A program made the translations under genes and the position numbers. Of a stretch of 27,500 nt of DNA, positions 21,524 to 25,062 are shown piece by piece. The notes beneath the pieces were generated by a model. It had not been told where the DNA came from and searched no databases. It saw only the letters and a list, made by a program, of their open reading frames with translations. Source of the DNA: Salpingoeca rosetta (Eukaryota; Opisthokonta; Choanoflagellata; Craspedida; Salpingoecidae). Position 1 is the stretch's first letter, and each line of letters opens with the position of its first letter. The stretch spans positions 311,704 to 339,203 of the forward strand of contig NW_004754926.1 of assembly GCF_000188695.1 (NCBI RefSeq), written 5' to 3'.

Positions 21524-24500
21524 ATGAGCCTGAACCAGGAGCAGATTGAGCAGCAGGTGCGTGGCGTGCTGTGTGCTTGCTTTGTGCCTGCTTTGTGCGT
21601 GTCCAACGCATGCCGGCTTGTGCGGCTCTCACCTTCCTGTGTGATGTGTCAGTGGGTGTGATCACACGCTTTTGCTTGTGCTAACATTCACTCGCTAACC
21701 GACACCCACACTGCATCGCACATGCCTGTGGCTGCCTGTGTCTTGTCGGCAGATTGCTCACATGATCAAGTTTATCGAGAGCGAGGCAGACGAGAAGGTT
21801 ACAGAAATCAAAGTCAAGGTATGCGCTGATGCGAGACGACAGCATGTGTGCATGCGCATGTGTGCATTTGTGCATGCGCGCGTGTGTGTGCGAGACAACA
21901 GCATGCGTGCATGTGTGTGCATGTGTGTGCATGTGTGTGCATGCGTGCTGTTGTTGCTTCCTTTTTTTTGTACCTCAATATATCTGGCCCACGACCCCCA
22001 ATGTTGTGTGGTTGCACGCATTCACCGACTCTGCTGCGCTCGTTTGCCTTCCTGCTTCGCTTTGTTTCGTGCAGGCCAAGGAAGAGTTTGACCGCGAGGT
22101 GGCACGAATGGTCAAGGATGAGGAGAGGAAAATCGTCGCCATGTATGAGCGCAGGGAGAAGGGCATGGAAACCCAGAAGCGCATGTGAGTCCCATGCCCG
22201 TCCCTGCAATGATGGCATGTGCACCCCATCCAACCTGTGTCGATGCAACCCTTCACGCTTTTGCTTTGCATCATTTGGGGTTGCCTGTCGAGCACCACCG
22301 CCTTGCGCTCTTGCGTGCCGTCGCGCACACTGCTGTGCACCTCCGCTACGCAAGTCCCTGTTCCTCGCGGCGCACTCGCACCTCTTTGCAACTTCCTCCT
22401 CCGTTTGTGTTTGCTCACACTGCCGTTTGCCACCCACACACAGTGCATACTCAAACAAGCTGAACGCAGCGCGTGTGAAGGTTCTGCAAGCACAGGACGA
22501 GTACCTTCAGGTGTGACGCTTGCTGCTGTTTCTGTTGCTGCAGCACTTACCCTTTGGTTTTCACACCACTTGTTGACTGCCTCATGCAACATCTGCCACT
22601 CGATGCTTGCGCAGTGTGCCCGCGGAGTCGGCACGACATTCCATGTCCTCCTCACGCTCTGTGTGCGCTTGGTTGATGTGTATGTGTGCATTTCCTCTCC
22701 TAGCACATTGTGTCAGATGCCAAGGAGGAGGTGAAGAAGCTGGCCGGTAACAAGAAGAAGTACTCCAAGCTGCTTCGCGACCTCATCACACAGGTAGCCA
22801 CTGCTCTGATGACCCACCTATTTTGTGCCGGTGCTTGATGCAGTGTGGTGTGTGATGCGAGGCGTAACCCCATGGTCCGTCTGCAAGTGAAGGGAAGGCT
22901 TGTCATCAGCTCGCTCGCTCCTCTGCGTGTGTCGCTGTGTCGCTGTGTCGCTGCCGTTATCTCACTCGCCCACTTGTATGATAACAGACCGCTCACAATC
23001 AATGCACACACACACAACACATGCACGGGTGCACCGGCCTCTCTGCAACTCTTATTACTTTGTTGCTGTGTTCTATGTAGGGCCTGTGCAGCCTGTTGGA
23101 AACACAGGTTGACCTGATGTGTCGCAAGAAGGACGTGGCCCTCGTCAAGGTGTGTGTCTAAGTTTCTTCTCGGCTGTTCCCACACCCGCATGCACCGCAT
23201 TCTCAGAGCACTTCCCAAGACCCAAATCGTGAGCAACCAAGCTCCCTCTCCCCCGCTCTCGCCTTTTGCAAACCTTTAGCTTTACCCCCCCCTTGCTCCT
23301 CCCTTCCCCCGCACTCCTTATCCCTCCTCTTTTTCCCTCGAGTCGGTGATGCGAATTTTTAATCGTTGCTACTCTTGATCGGACGTGGTTACCACGTTCA
23401 TGAAGCTACATTTATCACCAAGATCTCTGAGACTCGTCTGTTACCGAACCTAGCCCTTAAGGCACAGTTGCCTCAGCATGGTTTCTCTTCCTCCACTCTT
23501 CCGTTGCTGTTGTGATTGAGTCGGTGATGCGAATATTTAATCGTTGCTACTCTTGATCGGACGTGGTTACCACGTTCATGAAGCTACATTTATCACCAAG
23601 ATCTCTGAGACTCGTCTGTTACCGAACCTAGCCCTTAAGGCACAGTTGCCTCAGCATGGTTTCTCTTCCTCCACTCTTCCGTTGCTGTTGTGATTGAGTC
23701 GGTGATGCGAATATTTAATCGTTGCTACTCTTGATCGGACGTGGTTACCACGTTCATGAAGCTACATTTATCACCAAGATCTCTGAGACTCTTTCCAAAC
23801 ATGACATGCTCCTTGACGTTCATGCACAAACGTGCGCGCTCCGTGTACCCCCTTTCACTCCGCCCCCAACTATTTTTTCCCTCTGTCCTCCCTATCCCTT
23901 TGTGATTCGTTCTCTTTTTGTGTTGTGTTCCTCTTGTGCTCCTGCATTATGGACTGCTGGCTGTGAGTCGGTGATGCGAATTTTTAATCGTTGCTACTCT
24001 TGATCGGACGTGGTTACCACGTTCATGAAGCTACAATTATCACCAAGATCTCTGAGACTCTTTGGGTCGCGTGTCCACGTTGCTAGCGCGCACCACTGCC
24101 AGCCCTGCTCCACTCTCCCTGTTTCATCCCCTTACCTCCTTCATTCTTCTTTTTTTTATACGATGCACTGAGTCTTTGGGTCTGGTTTGCACCATCGGTC
24201 AACATCACACCCGCATCTCCCAACCGACCAGACATATCAGCACATCGCCAGCTTACAATCGCAAGCTCACAATGTCTTTGCTCTGAACATGCCTGGTGCT
24301 TGTGTGCTGTATGTGCGCTTAACAGGAGGTCTTGAGCGACGCTGTTGCAGACTTCAAGAGCAAGACAAAGCTGGACTGCACCGTCAACGTCAACGAGAAG
24401 AACTTCCTCAACGATGACTGGTACGTGCCAATATCCTCTCACGCAAACTGCTGCTGGCACTGTGTACACCACATGCACACGCATGCATGTACTCACACAC

Positions 24501-25062
24501 ACACACACACTCTTACCCACCCACCATCACCACGCCCTTGTTTGTGCGCAGCGGTGGCGGCGTCGAGCTCTCTGTGCGAGGCAACACAAAGGTCACCAAC
24601 ACACTCGACAAGCGCATGGATATGGCCGTGTCCCGGGTAAGCACCATGTTGCCCAAAAGTGCCCTGAAGTTACACGCTCCCTCCGCTCGTGTGTGTATTT
24701 TCTCGTTCCCCTTGTGTGCTGTGGCTTTCACAGCACACCCAAGCACTCGCAGTCGGTGATGCGAATTTTTAATCGTTGCTACTCTTGATCGGACGTGGTT
24801 ACCACGTTCATGAAGCTACATTTATCACCAAGATCTCTGAGACTGGCCTCCAGTGCTTCACCACAACACAACACAACACAGCACAACACAGCACATGCAT
24901 GTGTCACGTTGTGCATCATCTCTAGTCTTCACACCTGCTGCCTTGACTCACGGGACGTCCTTGTTTTGTTGTCTTGTTTATCGCGCCTGCTGCCAACAGT
25001 TGATGCCTGCCATCCGGTACAAGCTCTTTGGCGCGTCAACCAGCCGTGCCCACTTCGACTAA
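21524..25062 (+). CDS. ATP6V1E: V-type proton ATPase subunit E, 225 residues
   Basis: Subunit E pairs with subunit G in the peripheral stalks that tie the catalytic V1 sector to the membrane V0 sector of the vacuolar proton pump. Nine exons join in phase: 21524-21556, 21753-21818, 22075-22184, 22444-22510, 22704-22793, 23081-23149, 24326-24420, 24552-24636, 25000-25062. The length matches the family (about 226). The N-terminal half is a long charged helix (IAHMIKFIESEADEKVTEIK, EEFDREVARMVKDEERKIV). The C-terminal half has the family blocks GLCSLLETQVDLMCRKKD, GGGVELSVRGNTKVTNTLD and the closing LMPAIRYKLFGAS. The start ATG gives MSLNQEQIEQQ, which aligns with the usual N-terminus. It shares a divergent promoter region with the kinase-like gene. 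Introns 6 and 8 host five C/D snoRNA copies, making this a snoRNA host gene. Confidence 0.97.
23340..23435 (+). ncRNA. Intronic C/D-box snoRNA, U24 (SNORD24)-like, copy 1
   Basis: A 96-base unit in intron 6 of the V-ATPase E gene, on the sense strand. The terminal stem GAGTC/GACTC (23340-23344 with 23431-23435) encloses box C-like GTGATGC (23346-23352), D' CTTGA (23374-23378), a 6-bp hairpin ACGTGG-TTA-CCACGT (23383-23397), C'-like TTCATGA (23397-23403) and box D CTGA (23427-23430). CACCAAGATCT lies directly upstream of box D. It complements the 28S segment AGATCTTGGTG, which is the U24 target as I recall it. Upstream of D', TTGCTACT complements the nearby AGTAGCAA. Known U24 guides 2'-O-methylation of large-subunit rRNA; the same role is inferred here. 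Confidence 0.88.
23518..23613 (+). ncRNA. Intronic C/D-box snoRNA, U24-like, copy 2
   Basis: Same boxes, hairpin, guides and GAGTC/GACTC stem as copy 1, with a single T-to-A change in the A/T stretch 5' of the D' guide. It follows copy 1 by one 178-base duplication period in intron 6 of the V-ATPase E gene. Confidence 0.88.
23696..23791 (+). ncRNA. Intronic C/D-box snoRNA, U24-like, copy 3
   Basis: Identical to copy 2 over the 96-base core as far as I can read. The flank after the closing stem is unrelated to that of copies 1 and 2, so the core is conserved and its surroundings are not. Confidence 0.88.
23965..24060 (+). ncRNA. Intronic C/D-box snoRNA, U24-like, copy 4
   Basis: Near-identical 96-base core with one T-to-A change (gctacaattatc versus gctacatttatc) between C' and the D guide. 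Boxes, D guide and GAGTC/GACTC stem are intact. Flanks are unrelated to the tandem units. Still within intron 6 of the V-ATPase E gene. Confidence 0.87.
24750..24845 (+). ncRNA. Intronic C/D-box snoRNA, U24-like, copy 5 with compensatory stem change
   Basis: A fifth 96-base core, alone in intron 8 of the V-ATPase E gene. The closing stem reads CAGTC/GACTG instead of GAGTC/GACTC: the outer G-C pair is replaced by C-G, a double change that keeps pairing. All boxes and both guides match copy 1. Its flanks are unrelated to those of the intron 6 copies. Confidence 0.88.

Follow-up and report, generated by a model that had tools for sequence, protein, structure and literature searches.

Five U24-like box C/D snoRNA copies in two introns of the V-ATPase subunit E gene of Salpingoeca rosetta

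The host gene and its five intronic cores

The window analyzed in this report is a stretch of 27,500 nucleotides (nt) from the choanoflagellate Salpingoeca rosetta. It carries the V-ATPase subunit E gene PTSG_03533 on its + strand (21524-25062), and two introns of that gene contain five 96-nt cores that resemble the box C/D small nucleolar RNA (snoRNA) U24, also called SNORD24. The nine-exon model of the host gene gives a protein of 225 amino acids that is 100% identical to PTSG_03533 and matches the Pfam family PF01991 (V-ATPase subunit E) with an E value of 1.5e-53, in agreement with the host and the intron numbering proposed in the initial annotation of the window. All five cores lie on the sense strand of the host; intron 6 holds four of them and intron 8 the fifth. 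These two introns, of 1176 and 363 nt, are the longest of the eight, the remaining ones being 131 to 287 nt in length. The features of the locus are as follows.

21524..25062, + strand: host gene, V-ATPase subunit E (PTSG_03533), nine exons; protein match, PF01991
23150-24325, + strand: host intron 6, with four U24 cores
23340..23435, + strand: U24 snoRNA copy 1, intron 6; RF00069, 37.4 bits; core-to-28S pairing
23436..23517, + strand: 82-nt spacer between copies 1 and 2, same sequence as 23614-23695; spacer comparison
23518..23613, + strand: U24 snoRNA copy 2, intron 6; core position 18 differs from copy 1; RF00069, 38.7 bits
23614..23695, + strand: 82-nt spacer between copies 2 and 3; spacer comparison
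23696..23791, + strand: U24 snoRNA copy 3, intron 6; core same as copy 2; RF00069, 38.7 bits
23965..24060, + strand: U24 snoRNA copy 4, intron 6; core position 72 differs from copy 1; RF00069, 38.1 bits
24637-24999, + strand: host intron 8, with one U24 core
24750..24845, + strand: U24 snoRNA copy 5, intron 8; 94 of 96 positions in common with copy 1; RF00069, 37.4 bits

Any two of the five cores differ at 0 to 3 of their 96 positions: copies 2 and 3 carry a variant base at position 18, copy 4 has one at position 72, and copy 5 departs at positions 1 and 96. Copies 1 to 3 form a tandem repeat at 99-100% identity with a 178-nt unit, in which the two spacers are identical at 82 of 82 bases. The other flanks have no alignable similarity up to the closing stem, the best blastn match among them having an E value of 0.075. 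The earlier description of near-identical cores, confined to introns 6 and 8 in the sense orientation and set in mostly unrelated flanks, was thus accurate. Searches of the 54.4-Mb assembly with the core and with the Rfam U24 family, which give lower bounds on copy number, revealed no further believable U24 copy.

A tandem repeat as close as that of copies 1, 2, and 3 is what a duplication error in the assembly might produce, but copies 4 and 5 are embedded in unique sequence, and the variants at positions 18, 72, and 1/96 distinguish most of the copies from one another. Copies 2 and 3 differ in their 3' flank only, and no more than a single 178-nt unit could be false; we regard an assembly artefact as the source of the array as highly improbable.

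Box C/D anatomy and pairing with 28S rRNA

The C, D', C', and D boxes and the closing stem described earlier are all present, with C' in a degenerate form. The closing stem, GAGTC/GACTC, flanks the core, and in five of five copies the GTGATGC and CTGA motifs are joined by 5 or 6 closing pairs when G-U pairs and small offsets are allowed. The elements of copy 1 are listed here, in positions of the window.

23346..23352, + strand: box C, GTGATGC, 6 of 7 to RUGAUGA, the other copies being in register; sequence and scan
23361..23373, + strand: D' guide AATCGTTGCTACT; 13 perfect pairs with 1922-1934 of the organism's own 28S ribosomal RNA (rRNA), in local numbering of the large subunit (LSU-local)
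23374..23378, + strand: D' box, TTGA (4 nt) or CTTGA (5 nt); sequence, with the meaning of CUUGA taken from PMC5389607
23383..23397, + strand: internal hairpin ACGTGG-TTA-CCACGT in the interval from D' to C'; fold
23397..23403, + strand: degenerate box C', TTCATGA, 5 of 7; by eye, in the C' region of the SNORD24 alignment
23415..23426, + strand: D guide TCACCAAGATCT; 12 perfect pairs with own 28S, LSU-local 1909-1920
23427..23430, + strand: box D, CTGA; scan

A box C/D scan covered the window together with five 10-kb loci (L020-L023 and L026), with an rRNA set consisting of the organism's own 28S, 5.8S, and 1259 nt of 18S. It recovered all five copies of U24 and a single one of the three U18 copies described below, and nothing beyond those U24 and U18 copies; since two U18 copies escaped it, its strict rules evidently miss real genes.

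All five copies retain their boxes, their two guides, and the closing stem. This conservation bears on whether just one or two of the U24 genes are functional, the rest being recent duplicates that have no function. The 178-nt unit of copies 1 to 3 is very young, judging from its identical spacers, and near-identity is no proof of selection on every copy; nevertheless, the few copy-to-copy changes all fall outside the boxes and guides, and in copy 5 the outermost stem pair has gone from G-C to C-G, a two-sided change by which the stem is retained. We consider it unlikely that the array consists largely of dead copies.

All five cores match SNORD24/U24 (RF00069) at 37.4 to 38.7 bits over the full model (1-76 of 76), with E values of 2.5e-4 to 4.9e-4. 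In the part of the window searched, 22000-25100, this is the sole Rfam family with an E value of <1, and its matches fall at all five cores.

A 5.8S search of the genome led to two ribosomal DNA (rDNA) copies and so ruled out the idea that rDNA is absent from the assembly. The full-length 28S is at 1568-5269 of locus L024 (G000 C8:1917000-1926999), near the end of contig C8, and was recognized with 2134 bits over model positions 1-3401. A partial second rDNA copy is located at the start of contig C34. Queries made from the canonical eukaryotic 28S target, with up to 2 mismatches, had no match in the genome because the target stretch of the organism's own 28S is altered at four positions. This region reads AGATCTTGGTGACAGTAGCAACGATTC in S. 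rosetta, compared to AGAUCUUGGUGGUAGUAGCAAAUAuUC, in unpaired columns, in the Rfam eukaryotic LSU consensus, and the changed stretch within it is GGUGACAGUAGCAACGA in place of GGUGGUAGUAGCAAAUA. The one rDNA contig from IMG/VR that we compared agrees with the consensus at the U24 target.

The initial annotation had named a lack of complementarity to the organism's own 28S as one result that would refute the U24 assignment; both guides pair with this 28S perfectly, over 13 and 12 nt. These are the only complementarities of at least 9 nt between core and 28S; they lie directly upstream of D' and D, as is expected of a box C/D guide (at least 10 nt of rRNA complementarity upstream of either box or both), and their target segments in the 28S are one base apart. 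Among 3000 shuffled cores, two matches of at least 12 nt occurred in 1 and a match of at least 13 nt in 14, with no requirement that the matches adjoin boxes. A chance origin for a five-fold repeat with such complementarities beside D' and D is very unlikely. The targets align to Rfam LSU columns bearing the conserved GAUCUUGGUG...AGUAGCAA, and their arrangement is that of U24, with the D guide on the site of yeast Cm1437 and human Cm2338 (Cm, Am, and Gm denoting 2'-O-methylated C, A, and G) and the D' guide on the neighboring 28S segment. The two guides of the initial annotation are thus both real, but the D' guide is not of the TTTGCTA type in detail and reads AATCGTTGCTACT instead. It has 0 mismatches to the organism's own 28S and 2 to the consensus, so that both changes inside its target are matched, and its predicted pairing energy is -18.0 kcal/mol with the former compared to -9.8 kcal/mol with the latter.

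This fit also bears on a different proposal, that the cores work in cis within the introns, for instance in control of the splicing of the V-ATPase transcript, and not as trans-acting guides. The confinement of all copies to one host gene, in the sense orientation, would be in keeping with such elements, but perfect pairing with the organism's own 28S, including the non-consensus bases opposite the D' guide, is needless for a cis role, and we consider that role extremely improbable.

Counting five bases from each box, box D would select C1913 and TTGA would select A1925 (LSU-local numbering), and the predicted spacing of 12 nt is the same as that of yeast Cm1437/Am1449 and human Cm2338/Am2350, which published tables list as neighboring Cm and Am sites. 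The base preceding TTGA is C, giving CUUGA in the RNA, and the sixth base from TTGA, counted by hand from CTTGA, is G1926. According to PMC5389607, a change of the D' box of the human U24 motif to CUUGA in yeast kept methylation at the base sixth from UUGA, and by analogy these mutant data would favor G1926, the equivalent of yeast Gm1450, over the A1925 of the five-base rule. The D' box is accordingly best described as predicted to direct methylation at A1925, G1926, or both, and it could discriminate sharply between the two rules for choosing the base to be methylated. An animal-type D' box, aimed at C2352, was not found here, the fifth base being A1925 or G1926; to target C1927 the D' box would have to sit two bases upstream, where the letters are, by inspection, TCTT. 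Methylation of the C2352 type stated for animals is not expected. A site at G1926 would not on its own separate S. rosetta from animals, because one published table assigns human Gm2351, which would be the equivalent of G1926, to U24. A single narrow pattern search, which took CTGA as the only box, did not find a separate U76-like guide.

Origin of the array and weight of the evidence

We are confident in a reading of the cores as five U24 (SNORD24) paralogues, predicted to be released from introns and to guide 28S methylation, in an array built up by duplication in place. The five copies would be transcribed within the V-ATPase subunit E pre-mRNA and freed from introns 6 and 8, and each would form a C/D ribonucleoprotein, of the kind defined by a stable nucleolar RNA with bound fibrillarin, Nop56, and Nop58, gripping 25 of 26 contiguous 28S bases. 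Box D would then direct 2'-O-methylation of C1913, the equivalent of yeast Cm1437 and human Cm2338, and the D' box that of A1925 and/or G1926, the equivalents of yeast Am1449 and Gm1450.

The array appears to have been born by local duplication inside the host gene. In the block of copies 1 to 3, the outer flanks are unique, the inner spacers are identical, and the middle copy shares position 18 with copy 3, a structure expected from unequal crossing-over of two cores. Such a structure suggests that the cores recombine with one another, and gene conversion is a possible mechanism. Recombination between cores would have made the newest tandem unit and would keep the cores alike as the intron flanks drift, and from the sequence comparison we infer gene conversion as the cause of the near-identity of cores amid unalignable flanks.

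The exact boundaries of the cores might alternatively be explained by snoRNA retroposition, that is, RNA-mediated copying into nearby sites of the same gene. For copies 4 and 5 identity does end at the closing stem in both directions, and for copies 1 and 3 it does so on the side facing out of the tandem block; copy-and-paste of snoRNAs with poly-A has been reported in Plasmodium (PMC2656528). Against this, the five copies are confined to one gene in the sense orientation, with none believable found elsewhere in searches whose counts are lower bounds, and no poly-A tail is present within 30 nt downstream of the cores. Retroposition seems to us a rather doubtful source of the array.

Several observations weigh against five functional, recombining U24 genes. 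All five scores are under the RF00069 gathering cut-off of 41 bits, so that at this threshold the window has 0 matches, and the whole-genome E values of the cores are 0.001 to 0.002. The gathering score is a curation threshold for automatic labels and no biological feature; a lower score diminishes the automatic label and leaves the guide evidence untouched. The C' and D' boxes diverge from consensus. The D guide gains little from the change in the 28S (-18.0 compared to -17.6 kcal/mol), and the pairing was examined with one full 28S copy (L024), the other rDNA being partial, with runs of N and without the U24 site. Gene conversion is proposed from one genome. Finally, exonuclease trimming alone would not be expected to free all four of the snoRNAs in intron 6.

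Other snoRNAs and comparison with known systems

Six C/D families were searched genome-wide, and the accepted matches, all below their Rfam cut-offs, were the five copies of U24, one of U14, and three of U18. The U18 copies form a second array (locus L026, G000 C37:463500-473499).

C37:468308-468391, 468510-468591, and 468713-468796, - strand: U18 array, three copies

Reading from the sequence, the U18 copies are ~200 nt apart in a single intron, with flanks that by eye are unrelated. The host is eIF3a: the two downstream exons tested match PF22591, and one also matches PDB chains of eIF3 subunit A. All three copies have a 13-nt match to the organism's own 28S, and their closing stem varies on both sides, being GTGA/TCAC or TTGA/TCAA. 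We found no paper on U18 with the L1 gene. The single U14 candidate is at ~4959-5063 of locus L020 (G000 C25:960800-970799), with 47.1 bits compared to a cut-off of 64.

Downstream of the V-ATPase gene, the window has another gene on the + strand (25864-26430), of which two joined exons are without a Pfam match and have weak PDB matches only, including 2-oxoglutarate dehydrogenase E1 (E value, 0.3). Long GT/AC dinucleotide runs are present at 25674-25758 of the window and at another genome locus, L020 (~2437-2540).

U24 is a known kind of RNA; its distinctive features here are the presence of four copies in a single intron and the matched changes in guide and target. The initial annotation had considered the change of host unusual, a view that finds little encouragement in published accounts, where human and chicken U24 reside in RPL7A and sponge U24 in RPL5 and where the mobility of snoRNAs between hosts is described as ongoing (PMC3511168). 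The special standing it gave to copy number and clustering survives in part: the five copies are real, but the three-copy U18 array in one eIF3a intron makes them less exceptional. Its suggestion that proton-pump dosage is tied to rRNA modification is unsupported, and a literature search combining snoRNA host gene, V-ATPase, and intron found nothing.

In published descriptions, yeast U24 is a dual guide for Cm1437, Am1449, and Gm1450, and plant U24 serves Cm and Am on one RNA. In Dictyostelium, CD19 guides the Cm and Am and CD16 guides the Gm; separate RNAs for Cm and for Am are reported in Neurospora, fission yeast, and animals. Like yeast and plant U24 and CD19, S. rosetta U24 has on one RNA the guides for the Cm site and for the Am site 12 nt downstream; unlike them, it exists in five copies in V-ATPase subunit E and has a D' guide altered along with the 28S. 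In animals, Am2350 is assigned to U76 (SNORD76), and C2352 is stated to be the second U24 site, as is its chicken equivalent. Like animal SNORD24, S. rosetta U24 is intronic and has its D guide on the Cm2338-type target, but its D' box is positioned for A1925 or G1926.

It is possible, and we suggest it tentatively, that S. rosetta keeps a yeast- and plant-like dual U24 (Cm and Am, perhaps Gm) with a D' guide that changed in concert with a conserved 28S site, and that its genome raises snoRNA dosage through single-intron arrays, with five copies of U24 and three of U18, the U24 copies being homogenized. The dual Cm and Am part would fail if the D' box leads to methylation of G1926 alone, an outcome that the CUUGA data favor. 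Were the proposal correct, the animal split into U24 and U76 would be later than the divergence of choanoflagellates, which are the sister group of animals, and the single-intron arrays would imply endonucleolytic release of snoRNAs. Apart from this proposal, the locus is a clear example of matching between a guide RNA and its rRNA target at changed bases, in a site conserved in the Rfam eukaryotic consensus, and the single-base differences among the copies could reveal which of them a crowded intron yields as processed RNA. No snoRNA study of choanoflagellates or of S. rosetta was among the literature matches listed.

Paralogues of one snoRNA across several introns of one host gene are described for chicken and sponges. 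These occupy neighboring or different introns, whereas four of the S. rosetta U24 copies are within one intron. Introns with several snoRNAs are reported in rice, Drosophila, Plasmodium, plants, and Chlamydomonas, and in the Plasmodium two-snoRNA intron both snoRNAs are said to aim at the same site. Unlike the clusters of rice, Drosophila, Chlamydomonas, and Plasmodium, the U24 array consists of near-identical copies of a single snoRNA. A similar array is that of U18 in eIF3a of the same genome, which also has several copies of one C/D snoRNA in an intron, with flanks unrelated by eye, although the U18 copies diverge from each other more than the U24 copies do.

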